From contig NZ_JH584241.1 of the NCBI RefSeq assembly GCF_000241485.1, forward strand, positions 1,101,435 to 1,165,434: a stretch of DNA of 64,000 bases. Direction: 5' to 3'. The translations under genes and the position numbers were made by a program. Below the pieces are notes generated by a model. The model was given only the letters and a program-made list of their open reading frames with translations. It did no database searches and was not told the DNA's origin. Positions 48,084 to 63,792 of the stretch are shown one piece after another. The DNA is from Sphingomonas sp. PAMC 26605. Lineage in GTDB: Bacteria; Pseudomonadota; Alphaproteobacteria; Sphingomonadales; Sphingomonadaceae. Numbering within the stretch: the first letter of the stretch is position 1; each line of letters begins with the position of its first letter.

Positions 48084-48099
48084 TGCTCCACGTGGAACA
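48084..48099. other. parS-like centromere site (left arm)
   Basis: TGCTCCACGTGGAACA, one mismatch (C at position 3) from the palindromic parS consensus TGTTCCACGTGGAACA. It lies between the ankyrin gene stop and mmcB, about 7 kb left of the putative oriC. The outer bases T and A extend the palindrome. Confidence 0.75.
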
Positions 48100-53678: not shown

Positions 53679-54271
53679 GACGGCATCACCCCTCTAACGC
53701 GCAGATAGTCGAGCACCGGGAGCAATGGCAGGCCGAGCACGGTGAACTGGCTTCCCTCGATCCGGCTGAACAATTGCGCGCCCGGCCCCTCGATCCGATA
53801 GCAGCCGACGCAACCGGAGATCTCGGGCCATTCGAGATCGAGATAGCGCTCGATAAAATCGTCCGACAGCGAGCGGACGTGCATCCGCGCGCGATCGACC
53901 ACGCGCCACACCGGGCGGCCGCCTTCGGCCATCACCGCGGCGCTGACGAGTTCGTGGCGTTTCCCCGACAAGCGCCGCAGATGCGCGCGCGCCTCGTCGC
54001 GGTCGCGCGGCTTGTCGAGCATCGACCCGTCCTCGAGCGCGACGATCGAGTCGCTTCCGAGGACGAGCGCCTGGCCCTCGCCCGAGGATATCTTGATCGC
54101 CTTCAGTTCGGCGAGTGCGTCCGCCATGTCGCGCGCGGCAAGCCCTTCGCCGAGCAACGCCGCCTTCGCCGACTCCTCGTCGACGCCGGCCGACACAGCG
54201 GCGAACGGAACCCCCGCTGCGGTCAGCATCGCGCGCCGCGACGCGCTTTGCGAAGCCAGGATAAGGTTCAT
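53675..54271 (-). CDS. maf: Maf family nucleoside triphosphate pyrophosphatase
   Basis: A 198-residue house-cleaning enzyme that hydrolyses non-canonical nucleoside triphosphates and affects septum formation. The opening 'NLILASQSASRRAMLTAAG' carries the SxSxRR motif. 'VLGSDSIVALEDG' near residue 70 has the catalytic Asp region, and 'GCYRIEGPGAQLFSRIEGSQ' is read here near residue 155. The ATG at 54271 overlaps the ppsR stop (ATGA). The subgroup (dTTP/UTP or m7GTP preference) cannot be told from sequence alone. Confidence 0.93.
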   Translation of the reverse strand: MNLILASQSASRRAMLTAAGVPFAAVSAGVDEESAKAALLGEGLAARDMADALAELKAIKISSGEGQALVLGSDSIVALEDGSMLDKPRDRDEARAHLRRLSGKRHELVSAAVMAEGGRPVWRVVDRARMHVRSLSDDFIERYLDLEWPEISGCVGCYRIEGPGAQLFSRIEGSQFTVLGLPLLPVLDYLRVRGVMPS

Positions 54272-55092
54272 GGTTCCCCACTCGTATCGCCGCGACGTTC
54301 GCCGACGAGCGCAATGATCGCCGCCGCGGTTTCCTCGATCGAACGCCGGGTCACATCGATCACCGGCCAGCCATTGTCGGCGAACATGCGCCGCGCATAG
54401 GCCACTTCGCGCGTCACCGCCTCCTGATCGACATAAGCGGTGGTCGTCAGCTCGTTGAGCGACAGCAATCGGTTGCGACGGACCTGGATAAGCCGGTCGG
54501 CGCTCGTGGTGAGCCCAACGACGATCGGATTCTTGAGCGTGAAGAGATTTTCCGGCGGCGGGCTCTCGACCACGATCGGGATGTTGGCGGTCTTGAAGCC
54601 GCGATTGGCGAGATAGATCGAGGTCGGCGTCTTCGACGAACGCGACACGCCGGCAAGCAGGATGTCCGCCTCTTCCCAGTCTTCGGACAAGATACCGTCA
54701 TCATGCGCGATAGTGAACTGAATCGCATCGACCCGCGCGAAATAGGCCGCATCGAGCACGTGTTGCCGCCCCGGGCGCGCCTTCGCCGCCTGGCCGAGCA
54801 ACCCCGACAGCGCGCCCGTCACGGCGTCGAGCGGCGCGACCGCCGCCAGCCCGAGCGTACGACAGCGCGACTCCAAGGTCCGCCGCGTCTCGCTATTGAC
54901 CAGCGTGAACAACACCAGCCCCGGATTTTGCGAGATCTCCTGGAGGATCCGTTCGAGATGCGCTTCGGTCCGCACCATCGGCCAGAAGTGGCGGATCGTC
55001 TCGACATCGTCATATTGCGCGAGCGCGGCCTTGGCGATGTTCTCGAGCGTTTCCCCCGTCGAATCCGACAAAAGGTGGAGATGCAGGCGCAT
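54268..55092 (-). CDS. ppsR: Pyruvate, water dikinase regulatory protein (DUF299/PSRP family)
   Basis: A 274-residue bifunctional kinase/pyrophosphorylase of the PSRP family that switches PEP synthase or pyruvate phosphate dikinase on and off. It opens 'LHLHLLSDSTGETLENIAKA', read here as LHLLSDSTGETLENIA near residue 5. The P-loop-like 'ILLAGVSRSSKTPTSIYLAN' lies near residue 146. It is the first gene of the leftward string and lies at the edge of the putative oriC, matching the alphaproteobacterial order in which an RP001-type gene sits beside oriC. The start ATG at 55092 leaves the DnaA boxes outside the gene. Confidence 0.93.
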   Translation of the reverse strand: MRLHLHLLSDSTGETLENIAKAALAQYDDVETIRHFWPMVRTEAHLERILQEISQNPGLVLFTLVNSETRRTLESRCRTLGLAAVAPLDAVTGALSGLLGQAAKARPGRQHVLDAAYFARVDAIQFTIAHDDGILSEDWEEADILLAGVSRSSKTPTSIYLANRGFKTANIPIVVESPPPENLFTLKNPIVVGLTTSADRLIQVRRNRLLSLNELTTTAYVDQEAVTREVAYARRMFADNGWPVIDVTRRSIEETAAAIIALVGERRGDTSGEP

Positions 55093-55115
55093 CAGAAAGC
55101 GGTGCGGGGCGAAGC

Positions 55116-55124
55116 TGTGGACAA
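55116..55124 (-). promoter_or_regulatory. DnaA box, one mismatch
   Basis: TGTGGACAA on the plus strand, i.e. TTGTCCACA on the minus strand, one mismatch from TTATCCACA. It lies 24 nt from the ppsR start. Confidence 0.6.
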
Positions 55125-55146
55125 CATGGGCGTAAGCGCTAGCGCA

Positions 55147-55166
55147 ACTTTGCCCGTCCGCAAAGT
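55147..55166. repeat. Inverted repeat within oriC
   Basis: ACTTTGC and GCAAAGT separated by CCGTCC. The arms are perfect. It could bind a dimeric regulator or form a cruciform near the DnaA boxes. I do not recognise the binding protein. Confidence 0.5.
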
Positions 55167-55194
55167 CGAGCGACCGCGGTGCATAACCCATCGG

Positions 55195-55203
55195 CTATCC
55201 ACA
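55195..55203 (+). promoter_or_regulatory. DnaA box, one mismatch
   Basis: CTATCCACA, one mismatch from TTATCCACA, on the plus strand, 35 nt left of the perfect box and facing it. Confidence 0.65.
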
Positions 55204-55237
55204 ATCGCGCAAACAGCGCTGGGTTCCTCCCACAGCC

Positions 55238-55246
55238 TGTGGATAA
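55238..55246 (-). promoter_or_regulatory. DnaA box, perfect match
   Basis: TGTGGATAA on the plus strand is the exact reverse complement of the consensus TTATCCACA. It is the strongest DnaA box of the putative origin. Confidence 0.8.
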
Positions 55247-55250
55247 TGGG

Positions 55251-55262
55251 GGCGGATCCGCC
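55251..55262. repeat. 12-bp perfect palindrome within oriC
   Basis: GGCGGATCCGCC, immediately after the perfect DnaA box and immediately before a GACTC (GANTC) site. The role is unknown. Confidence 0.5.
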
Positions 55263-55410
55263 GACTCAAGGCGTGCGCGTCGATCGCGCCACGTCAATCT
55301 GTTGGCATTTTCGGGATGGCGGCATAAGCCCCGCTATCAACGTGCCAACAACCGCTTCAACCTTTTAAGATTCTAGATTCTTATGGAAGTAGGGCGAGGA
55401 AAGACCGATC

Positions 55411-56442
55411 GTGCTCACACAGAACAAGCCGTTGCTCGCCACGCTCAAGGGTGAGCGTGCGCCCACCCCGCCGATCTGGCTGATGCGTCAGGCCGGGCGG
55501 TATCTCCCCGAATATCGCGCGCTTCGGGCCGAGAAAGGCGGCTTCCTCGCTTTGGTCAATGACAGCGAAGCGGCGGCCGAGGTGACGATCCAGCCGATCC
55601 GCCGCTTCGGCTTCGACGGAGCGATTCTGTTCTCGGATATCCTGATGGTCCCGTCGGCGCTGGGACAGGGACTGAGCTTCGGTGTTGGCGAAGGACCGGC
55701 GCTGACCCCTCCACTGGTCGATCATGCGCTGTCCGGCCTCCACGGGGCGCCTGAGCGGCTCGATCCGGTGTATGCGACCGTGCGCCTGGTCGCAGCGCAG
55801 CTTCCACCGCAGACCACCTTTCTCGGCTTTGCCGGGAGCCCGTGGACCGTCGCCACCTATATGGTCGCGGGACATGGCAGCAAGGACCAGGGCGAGACGC
55901 GGCGTTTCGCGTACGGCGACCCTGCGGCGTTCGGTGAGATCATCACCGCGATCGCCGATTGCACCGTCGAGTATCTCTCGCGGCAGATCGAGGCCGGGGT
56001 CGAGGCGGTGCAATTGTTCGACAGCTGGTCGGGCAGCCTCAGCCCCGCGCAATTCGAACGCTGGGTGATCGCCCCCAATGCGGCGATCGTAGCGGCGCTG
56101 CGGGCGCGCCATCCCGGCGTGCCGATCATCGGCTTTCCCAAGGGTGCCGGCGAAAAGCTTCCGGCCTATGCGCGGGAAACCGGCGTCGATGCGCTCGGGC
56201 TCGACGAGACGATCGATCCCGAATGGGCCGCCGCGACCTTGCCGGCGGATTTGCCCGTGCAAGGCAATCTCGACCCGCTCGTGTTGATCGCCGGCGGCGC
56301 GGCGATGGAACAGGCCGCCACGCGGATCCTGCGCGCGTTTGCCGATCGTCCGCATATCTTCAATCTCGGTCATGGCATCCTGCAGGACACCCCCATCCCC
56401 CATGTCGAGCAGCTGCTCGATTTCGTCCGGAGCGCGCGATGA
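55411..56442 (+). CDS. hemE: Uroporphyrinogen decarboxylase
   Basis: A 343-residue heme-pathway enzyme that decarboxylates uroporphyrinogen III to coproporphyrinogen III in the cytoplasm. The signature 'PPIWLMRQAGRYLPEYRAL' lies near residue 16 (RQAGRYLPEY). 'GFAGSPWTVATYMVAGHGSK' near residue 138 and 'NLGHGILQDTPIPHVEQL' near the C-terminus are typical. The start is GTG at 55411 with AGGAAAG about 9 nt upstream. It borders the putative oriC, an order conserved in alphaproteobacteria. Its promoter must lie inside the origin region, so replication could affect its transcription. Confidence 0.95.
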   Translation: MLTQNKPLLATLKGERAPTPPIWLMRQAGRYLPEYRALRAEKGGFLALVNDSEAAAEVTIQPIRRFGFDGAILFSDILMVPSALGQGLSFGVGEGPALTPPLVDHALSGLHGAPERLDPVYATVRLVAAQLPPQTTFLGFAGSPWTVATYMVAGHGSKDQGETRRFAYGDPAAFGEIITAIADCTVEYLSRQIEAGVEAVQLFDSWSGSLSPAQFERWVIAPNAAIVAALRARHPGVPIIGFPKGAGEKLPAYARETGVDALGLDETIDPEWAAATLPADLPVQGNLDPLVLIAGGAAMEQAATRILRAFADRPHIFNLGHGILQDTPIPHVEQLLDFVRSAR

Positions 56443-56894
56443 TCGGAATGCTCGGGAACGCCTACCCTTGGGTCAAGGCAGCGCATCTGATCTTCGTGAT
56501 CTTTTGGATGGCGGGGCTGTTCATGCTGCCGCGTTACTTGGTTTATCACCAGGAGGCCGCGATCGGGTCGCCCGAGGCCGCGCAATGGGTCGAGCGCGAG
56601 AGCAAGATCCGCAACATCATCCTGACGCCCGCAATGGTCATGGTGTGGGTGCTTGGCCTGACGCTCGGTGCCAATCTCGGGCTCTTCTCGGGTGCGAGCG
56701 GGCTCGGTTGGCTGCATCTCAAGCTGCTGCTGGTGGTGATCCTCAGCGGCTATCACGGCTGGGCGGTGGGCTATGCCAAGAAGCTCGCGGCGGGCCGACC
56801 GACGCTGACCGGGCGACATTTGCGGCTGATCAACGAAGTGCCTGCGGTGCTGGTGACGTTCATCGTCATCCTCGCGATCGTCCAGCCCTTCTGA
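56439..56894 (+). CDS. hemJ: Protoporphyrinogen oxidase HemJ
   Basis: A 151-residue membrane protein of the HemJ type (also annotated CopD-like), which oxidises protoporphyrinogen IX in bacteria lacking HemG/HemY. Four hydrophobic segments are seen. 'WVKAAHLIFVIFWMAGLFML' near residue 10 carries the conserved His (H16). 'PRYLVYHQEA' follows, and the later 'LKLLLVVILSGYHGW' near residue 94 has another conserved Lys/His pair. The ATG at 56439 overlaps the hemE stop (ATGA), a heme-pathway pairing. No terminator is evident before rho. Confidence 0.9.
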   Translation: MIGMLGNAYPWVKAAHLIFVIFWMAGLFMLPRYLVYHQEAAIGSPEAAQWVERESKIRNIILTPAMVMVWVLGLTLGANLGLFSGASGLGWLHLKLLLVVILSGYHGWAVGYAKKLAAGRPTLTGRHLRLINEVPAVLVTFIVILAIVQPF

Positions 56895-60484: not shown

Positions 60485-60500
60485 TGTTCCACGTGGAACA
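60485..60500. other. parS centromere site, perfect palindrome
   Basis: TGTTCCACGTGGAACA, a perfect 16-bp palindrome in the 61-nt gap between mnmE and mnmG, starting right after the mnmE stop codon. It matches the bacterial parS consensus bound by ParB. The parAB genes lie 2.5 kb to the right. Confidence 0.92.
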
Positions 60501-62390: not shown

Positions 62391-63001
62391 GCGAAGACGA
62401 GGCGCAAGACTGGATCGCACGCCATTTTGGCACCGAGGCGAAAGTCGGATTACAGCAACTGATCGACATCGTTGTTACCGAGAGCGCTCGACAAAATTTG
62501 ATCGCCCCATCGACGCTGTCGGCGATGTGGGTCAGGCACGTTGTTGATTCCGCGCAATTGGTCACGCTGGCGGCAGAGTCGGATGGGGTATGGCTCGATA
62601 TCGGGAGTGGTGCCGGCTTTCCCGGTCTGGTCGTCGCGACGCTGACCGATCGGCCGGTGATTCTGCTCGAGCCGCGTCGCCGCCGTGCCGAGTTCCTTTT
62701 GGTTGCAGCCGATGCGTTGGGCGTTAGCGATCGTGTGACGGTGCACTGCGCTCGCATCGAGGACGTCAAGATCACCGCCAATGTGATTTCGGCGCGGGCC
62801 GTCGCATCGCTGGACAGTCTTTTCACCTGGGGGTTGCAATGCGCATCTTCCGCAACGCGCTGGGTTCTGCCAAAAGGTCGAACGGCGCTTGCGGATATAG
62901 CCGCGGCGCAGGAGCATTGGGACGGAGTGTTTCACGTGGAACACAGCATCACCGACCCCGATTCGCTGATCGTAGTTGCATCAGGGGTGACACGCCGATG
63001 A
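62387..63001 (+). CDS. rsmG: 16S rRNA (guanine527-N7)-methyltransferase RsmG
   Basis: A 204-residue methyltransferase that makes m7G527 in 16S rRNA (streptomycin-binding region). '[20 protein letters not shown]' lies near residue 40 (family-type H-DS motif). The SAM motif '[19 protein letters not shown]' lies near 69, and '[20 protein letters not shown]' (here [13 protein letters not shown]) near 93. The start GTG at 62387 overlaps the mnmG stop. A parS-like site is embedded in its coding sequence at 62928. The stop overlaps the parA start (ATGA). Confidence 0.94.
62928..62943. other. parS-like site inside the rsmG coding region
   Basis: TGTTTCACGTGGAACA, one mismatch from the palindromic parS consensus, within the last 75 nt of rsmG, where it encodes part of 'VFHVEHS'. 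It lies 55 nt before the parA start. Confidence 0.85.
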
Positions 63002-63792
63002 ACGTCATTGCCGTCGCGAATCAGAAGGGCGGGGTCGGCAAGACGACGACCGCGATCAACCTCGGTACGGCGCTTGCTGCAACGGGGCTGCGGGTGTTGT
63101 TGCTTGACCTCGATCCGCAAGGAAATTGTTCGACCGGGCTGGGCATTGCGCGCGCCGATCGCCACCATTCGACCTACGACATCCTGTTGGGCGAGACTTC
63201 GATCGAGACGGCCGCGATCGGCACCTGCGTCCCCAAGCTCGATATCGTTCCGGCGACCGTTGACCTTTCGGGCGCCGAAATCGAACTCGTCGAATATGAG
63301 GAGCGCACGCATCGCCTGTCGCGGGCCTTGGCGCGATCGGATCACCGCTGGGACGTCGTGCTGATCGATTGCCCGCCCTCGCTCGGTTTGCTGACGCTCA
63401 ATGCGATGGTCGCGTCGAACTCGCTGCTCGTGCCGCTGCAGTGCGAATTCTTCGCGCTCGAGGGCCTCAGCCAACTATTGAGCACGGTCGAGCGGATCCG
63501 CGAGCGCTTCAACCCGGCCCTTTCGATCATGGGCGTTGCGCTGACGATGCACGATCGCCGCAATCGGCTAACCGATCAAGTATCGAACGATGTCCGCGCG
63601 GTGCTCGGCCGGGTCGTTTTCGACACCGTCATTCCGCGTAACGTCCGCCTGTCCGAGGCGCCGAGCCACGGCCTGCCCGCGTTGATCTACGATTATCGCT
63701 GTCCGGGGTCGGAAGCCTATATCGCGCTCGCACGCGAGCTGATCGCCCGACTGCCGGCGATGGATACACCCCAACCTGCTAGGGCTGCATGA
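62998..63792 (+). CDS. parA: Chromosome partitioning ATPase ParA
   Basis: A 264-residue Walker-type ATPase that moves the origin region to opposite poles together with ParB bound at parS. The deviant Walker A is 'VANQKGGVGKTTTAINLG' at residues 6-23, Walker A' is 'LLLDLDPQGNCSTGLGI' near residue 36, and Walker B is 'VVLIDCPPSLGLLTLNAM' near residue 118. The length is typical of chromosomal Soj/ParA. The ATG at 62998 overlaps the rsmG stop, and its stop overlaps the parB start (ATGA). Confidence 0.96.
   Translation: MNVIAVANQKGGVGKTTTAINLGTALAATGLRVLLLDLDPQGNCSTGLGIARADRHHSTYDILLGETSIETAAIGTCVPKLDIVPATVDLSGAEIELVEYEERTHRLSRALARSDHRWDVVLIDCPPSLGLLTLNAMVASNSLLVPLQCEFFALEGLSQLLSTVERIRERFNPALSIMGVALTMHDRRNRLTDQVSNDVRAVLGRVVFDTVIPRNVRLSEAPSHGLPALIYDYRCPGSEAYIALARELIARLPAMDTPQPARAA

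Follow-up and report, generated by a model that had tools for sequence, protein, structure and literature searches.

The ppsR–hemE spacer as the very probable chromosomal replication origin of a Sphingomonas-like alphaproteobacterium

The analyses described below lead us to place the chromosomal replication origin (oriC) of a Sphingomonas-like alphaproteobacterium, with very little doubt, in the intergenic spacer between the divergent genes ppsR and hemE, as an earlier note on this DNA had proposed. The assignment is supported by the sites in the spacer and their clustering (the DnaA-box cluster is unique), by the gene context, by conservation of the box positions in relatives, by parS sites, and, less decisively, by strand composition, which switches close to the spacer here and, in a second genome (G012), at the spacer itself. 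The origin is an ordinary one, its place and parts being as already described for relatives; since PMC1914354 and PMC4741004, in the extracts on which we draw, describe origins near hemE, we regard the call as both right and ordinary. The window (the whole stretch of 64,000 nucleotides that was analysed) corresponds to positions 1,101,435–1,165,434 of contig C1 (3,958,115 bp), from a genome of 4.80 Mb in 23 contigs, and the spacer, with a GC content of 0.58, to C1 positions 1,156,527–1,156,844. In a search of genome contigs the nearest matches to hemE came from Sphingomonas and allied genera, at identities of up to 79%.

Matches to PF01208 and PF03618 flank the spacer, which is the hemE/COG1806 position of alphaproteobacterial oriC, PF03618 being, as we take it, COG1806/DUF299. 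The start of ppsR was set at 55092 on the minus strand because most homologues align from residue 1–3; the mechanical ORF reaches 55191. The flanking gene order that had suggested an origin neighbourhood is backed by Pfam for a dnaQ-type exonuclease, coaE, ppsR, hemE, rho, mnmE, mnmG, rsmG and parA, and the flanks presumably also hold aroE, maf and hemJ, which were identified from translations only. The parB gene of the presumed parAB locus would fall past the end of the window. The reported change of gene direction at the spacer holds locally, with minus-strand genes at ~49.5–55 kb and plus-strand genes at 55.4–63.8 kb (with exceptions), but not over a longer range: across the full 55.3 kb to the left of the spacer, long ORFs make up nearly equal lengths of the two strands, 24.5 kb of the plus and 25.8 kb of the minus strand. 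Coordinates are collected in Table 1.

Table 1. Features of the putative origin region (window positions)
Feature	Position	Strand	Basis or remark
Very probable oriC: ppsR–hemE intergenic spacer (318 bp)	55093–55410		Noncoding, divergent flanks; three DnaA boxes; 67 orthologous spacers compared
ppsR / COG1806 / DUF299 (kinase-pyrophosphorylase)	54268–55092	-	PF03618, E 3.1e-90
hemE (uroporphyrinogen decarboxylase), GTG start at 55411	55411–56442	+	PF01208, E 1.5e-112
parA-type ATPase, presumed chromosomal parAB locus	62998–63792	+	PF13614, E 6.7e-62
DnaA box 1, TTGTCCACA (differs from TTATCCACA at one position)	55116–55124	-	Strongly conserved CTGTGGA block, 67-spacer alignment
DnaA box 2, CTATCCACA, one mismatch	55195–55203	+	Less conserved among 67 spacers
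Degenerate box position, window GCGCAAACA	55207–55215	+	Alignment consensus (partly 50–70%) TTGTCCACA
DnaA box 3, exact TTATCCACA	55238–55246	-	Conserved CCACAG-CTGTGGATAA block
GANTC site (GACTC)	55263–55267		Sequence
TGTTGGCA motif	55300–55307	+	TGTTGGC in 28/67 spacers
Conserved right-hand block, consensus TAAnCCCCG...TCCAC..GCCAAC	55322–55350		Window TATCAACGTGCCAACA, degenerate DnaA-box position
AT-richer stretch, possibly the unwinding element and the region of the hemE promoter	55350–55405		Presumed function
Two GANTC sites (GATTC at 55369, GATTC at 55376)	55369–55380		Sequence
parS-like site	48084–48099		One mismatch
parS, TGTTCCACGTGGAACA	60485–60500		Zero mismatches to pattern
parS, TGTTTCACGTGGAACA	62928–62943		Zero mismatches to pattern

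The spacer carries, as had been noticed, one exact DnaA box (TTATCCACA) and two near-exact ones (TTGTCCACA and CTATCCACA, one mismatch each). The consensus YTRTCCACA occurs 30 times genome-wide and 15 times on C1; the three occurrences in the spacer lie within 131 bp, the other 12 on C1 at least 20 kb apart, and with no other pair closer than 20 kb the spacer is the sole cluster on this 3.96-Mb contig. As a word YTRTCCACA is not over-represented, since the reversed control pattern occurs 65 times genome-wide against its 30. Elsewhere, on contig C3, looser groups of DnaA boxes were observed (three at 93,132–94,852 and two at 111,183–111,368), which perhaps mark the origin of another replicon.

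The arrangement is widely retained among relatives. In 74 of 80 hemE loci from genome contigs ppsR lies divergently upstream of hemE, the other six having no ppsR match; after exclusion from the spacer counts of eight of the 74 loci, in which the ppsR match stopped short of residue 3, the remaining 66 and the window gave 67 spacers. These contain 158 boxes at a tolerance of one mismatch, 44 of them exact, whereas the controls average 3.5 boxes (0.11 exact) and an equal number of hemE-coding bases holds two; at least one box is present in 66 of the 67, at least two in 49, and a single spacer has none. When the 67 spacers were aligned, boxes 1 and 3 fell in conserved blocks; another box position came to light at 55207, and the right-hand part has a block of its own at 55322–55350. 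Judging from the alignment, 55207–55215 is perhaps a DnaA box that the window has lost. Class-wide, a ppsR match was found in 30 of 58 genomes and hemE lies divergently beside ppsR in 24 of these 30 loci (our own included); a box is present in 20 of the 24 spacers and absent from four. Two records, named Microvirga sp. SRT01 (L012) and Bacillus sp. 2B10 (L047), contain sphingomonad-like hemE–ppsR loci with 74% and 70% identity, respectively, to the hemE of the window, and hence these record names may be wrong.

A genome-wide search with the parS pattern TGTTNCACGTGNAACA found three sites at one mismatch or fewer, all of them in the window and none farther than 8 kb from the spacer. At two mismatches six more places appeared (three on C1, three on C2), the reversed control giving three forward and three reverse. 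A comparable picture emerged from G012, a genome of the same genus in one contig of 3,376,213 bp, in which ppsR lies at 2,208,874 with hemE divergent at 333 bp (L123) and the spacer occupies ~2,208,540–2,208,873: only two parS sites at one mismatch or fewer were found there, at 2,200,163 and 2,202,599, which puts them ~6 and 8.5 kb away from the G012 spacer.

Strand composition in the present genome was followed along C1 by sampling (40 stretches plus the window, ~22% of the contig). The expectation that the GC-skew minimum would fall near 55.2 kb of the window stood in so far as a local minimum lies 3.6 kb away, but the contig samples show two further switches. Over 1.02–1.32 Mb (less 1.5 kb) the cumulative skew is lowest at 1,160,298 (window 58864), on a broad floor, since 1.114–1.179 Mb stays within 250 of it and the spacer stands at −1571 against −1608. 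All eight stretches sampled at 0–0.86 Mb have positive GC skew. Negative values were obtained for seven of eight at 0.86–1.10 Mb and, within the window, for three of the five pieces that precede the spacer; between the spacer and 2.94 Mb 16 of 18 stretches are positive, and six of seven from 3.0 Mb onwards are negative. The motif GGGCAGGG, which in our view resembles KOPS, is found among the matches listed 61 times on the plus and at least 10 times on the minus strand up to 0.84 Mb, twice and at least 17 times, respectively, at 0.869–1.213 Mb, and 37 and at least seven times at 1.237–1.81 Mb; these listings agree with the sampled stretches and the window, outside which sites on the minus strand may be undercounted.

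Near 0.86 Mb (C1 ~0.861) both GC skew and GGGCAGGG polarity flip from plus to minus, so that C1 has four skew segments rather than two, and the segment 0–0.86 Mb looks inverted against its arm, which a large rearrangement or a join made in assembly would explain. Rfam gave no match, and so no rRNA, at 0.84–0.88 Mb and in the terminal 20 kb on both ends of C1, and the outer 6 kb of C1 matched no other sampled stretch. A search for dif with a single pattern gave no site on C1 and one match on C2 (three mismatches), which equals the reversed-control count. As to dnaA as an origin marker, the sole Bac_DnaA_C match lies 0.83 Mb from the spacer.

In G012, among the matches listed, eight minus-strand GGGCAGGG sites extend up to 2,207,806 and the first on the plus strand is at 2,221,749, and thus the strand switch brackets the spacer; plus-strand sites number at least 64 at 0–0.601 Mb and at least nine at 0.88–1.93 Mb, and resume from 2,221,749. 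In 20 sampled stretches of this genome, the arm that runs from the spacer over the contig start to 0.6 Mb has 18 plus and two minus sites, and the opposite arm none and 24. The opposite switch falls near 0.60 Mb; on a circular contig the two switches would delimit arms of ~1.6 and ~1.8 Mb. Raw GC skew in G012 is noisy and keeps its sign across the spacer (+0.06 on one side, +0.07 on the other). Polar octamers were learned on G012 with its arms set by its spacer and 0.60 Mb, and because these arms were preset the octamer result tests the present genome only. Here the 30-word minimum lies at 1,156,718 (window 55284), with a second low at 1,223,501 that is nearly equal (−130 vs −139); with 100 words it lies at 1,160,705 (window 59271; −299 against −336), and with the ten most polar words at 1,234,588 (1.2346 Mb).

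These data bear on a reading that we consider highly improbable, namely that the spacer is just a divergent ppsR/hemE promoter under DnaA control and that the true origin lies elsewhere, for instance 56–80 kb to the right. DnaA does regulate promoters, and among the matches listed GGGCAGGG turns plus in this genome only at 1.237 Mb, 56–80 kb right of the spacer, with seven of seven sites between 1.1567 and 1.2127 Mb pointing the ‘wrong’ way; the ten most polar octamers likewise place a switch in the 1.21–1.24 Mb interval. However, from the spacer to 1.50 Mb YTRTCCACA is absent, with a lone TTTTCCACA at 1,230,823, parS sites lie at the spacer and not at 1.21–1.24 Mb, GC skew is positive in every sampled stretch from 1.165 to 1.32 Mb, and in G012 the GGGCAGGG switch (among the matches listed) is at the spacer itself. 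Gene order round the origin, moreover, differs between the two genomes: the longest collinear block in the sampled stretches surrounds the origin (own 1.1416–1.1662 Mb; other blocks are shorter), and own 1.069–1.075 Mb, which is on the ppsR side here, adjoins the origin block on the hemE side in G012. Given this change of side, a rearranged flank could account for the polarity offset. At 1.167–1.237 Mb seven consecutive GGGCAGGG sites (among the matches listed) face the origin while GC skew is already positive, and this segment is possibly a recently moved flank. That an ordinary spacer came by its three boxes through chance has, in our estimate, a negligible probability: one-mismatch 9-mers are not rare (the window has six sites that differ from TTATCCACA at one position or none, three of them in the spacer, against 2.6 expected), but none of 5000 first-order Markov resamplings (which are not exact dinucleotide shuffles) put three boxes into one spacer, the resampled mean being 0.034, and relatives have the box blocks at matching places of the alignment.

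With the spacer thus read as oriC, its remaining elements can be considered. The AT-richer end described previously was recovered, GC being 0.49 in two 100-bp steps (55300–55449) against 0.58–0.79 in the other steps of 54000–56499; AT content is also above the genome average, since GC is 0.62–0.71 in 20 samples of C1, of 20 kb each, compared with 0.58 for the spacer and 0.49 for its right end. GANTC, the site of CcrM methylation, is present three times in the spacer, at 55263, 55369 and 55376, in line with what had been reported, and 303 times in the 67 sphingomonad hemE–ppsR spacers, where the controls averaged 97 and reached 116 at most, an approximately threefold enrichment, with at least one site in all 67. 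Inverted repeats do occur in the spacer, but the best-looking pair, TGTTGGCA/TGCCAACA, is not preserved as a pair in relatives. A functional hairpin of this pair was considered and found no support: its single-stranded DNA fold has z = −1.8, nine of 200 shuffles fold equally well, and of the 28 loci that have the left arm nine have a right arm complementary to it throughout. Scans of 54900–55600 for a sigma-70 consensus promoter and for a terminator gave no match. Caulobacter CcnA is an origin RNA, according to the extract of PMC8959179; in 54900–55650 no Rfam match of any kind was found up to E 5, although Rfam may omit CcnA.

The right-hand part of the spacer, beside hemE, may vary by lineage. 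The right-end motif TCCACAG[GC] occurs in 24 of the 67 spacers and TGTTGGC in 28, both together in none and neither in 15; and in four alignment rows (L055, L077, L078, L079) a box-like CTGTGGATG stands at the aligned place of TGTTGGC, which on the alignment would make this place box-like by origin. We offer only as a doubtful suggestion, drawn from the same comparison, that DnaA-box-like positions beside hemE have undergone lineage-specific replacement in part of the sphingomonads. TGTTGGC might be recognized by another protein, or by a DnaA of shifted preference, that controls opening beside hemE, or it may amount to just a lineage marker.

In the scheme that we infer, DnaA-ATP would bind at 55238, where the box is exact, and at 55116 and 55195, where it is near-exact; weaker, degenerate boxes to the right would perhaps be bound as well. 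Bound DnaA would then oligomerize and melt the AT-richer stretch beside hemE, the helicase would load at the opened stretch, and two forks would depart in opposite directions. ParB on the parS sites 5–8 kb away would segregate the new origin copies, and GANTC methylation may mark the state of replication. Placement of oriC in the spacer fixes the start point and the arms of the chromosome. The hemE/ppsR rule is backed by box positions aligned over 67 loci; knowledge of alphaproteobacterial origins is left unchanged by this assignment, and for the control of sphingomonad origins TGTTGGC and the excess of GANTC offer small leads.

Finally, the spacer may be set beside origins already described. 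The origin region of Rickettsia prowazekii (RP001/hemE) has COG1806–hemE boundaries and, in the extracts of PMC1914354, is much AT-richer (82.55% AT, Table 1 therein) than the window spacer with its GC of 0.58. The Caulobacter crescentus origin, Cori, identified experimentally, lies between hemE and CC_0001 (COG1806/DUF299), as the earlier note had broadly stated, and contains five DnaA boxes, five CtrA sites and one IHF site (PMC1914354, same extracts). The window spacer resembles Cori in its identical flanking gene pair and in the DnaA boxes and AT-rich part between them (as Cori is described in those extracts), but unlike Cori it lacks TTAA-N7-TTAA (CtrA) and WATCAN5WTR (IHF). In these scans, which were run without the Caulobacter spacer as a positive control, the CtrA pattern occurred once in each of two of the 67 spacers (control total mean 0.18) and as a full site in one of the 24 class-wide hemE/ppsR spacers, and the IHF pattern four times in the 67 spacers against a control mean of 4.5; CtrA sites are thus rare in both sets, and by that test their absence here is not special. 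For Sphingopyxis granuli TFA, oriC was predicted close to hemE (Ori-Finder/DoriC), as for most Sphingomonadaceae in DoriC (PMC4741004, in extract). Compared with these predicted origins by description rather than position by position, and as far as the extract goes, the window spacer differs in nothing essential, and it shares with them the conserved gene organization, the putative DnaA boxes and the putative unwinding element (PMC4741004).
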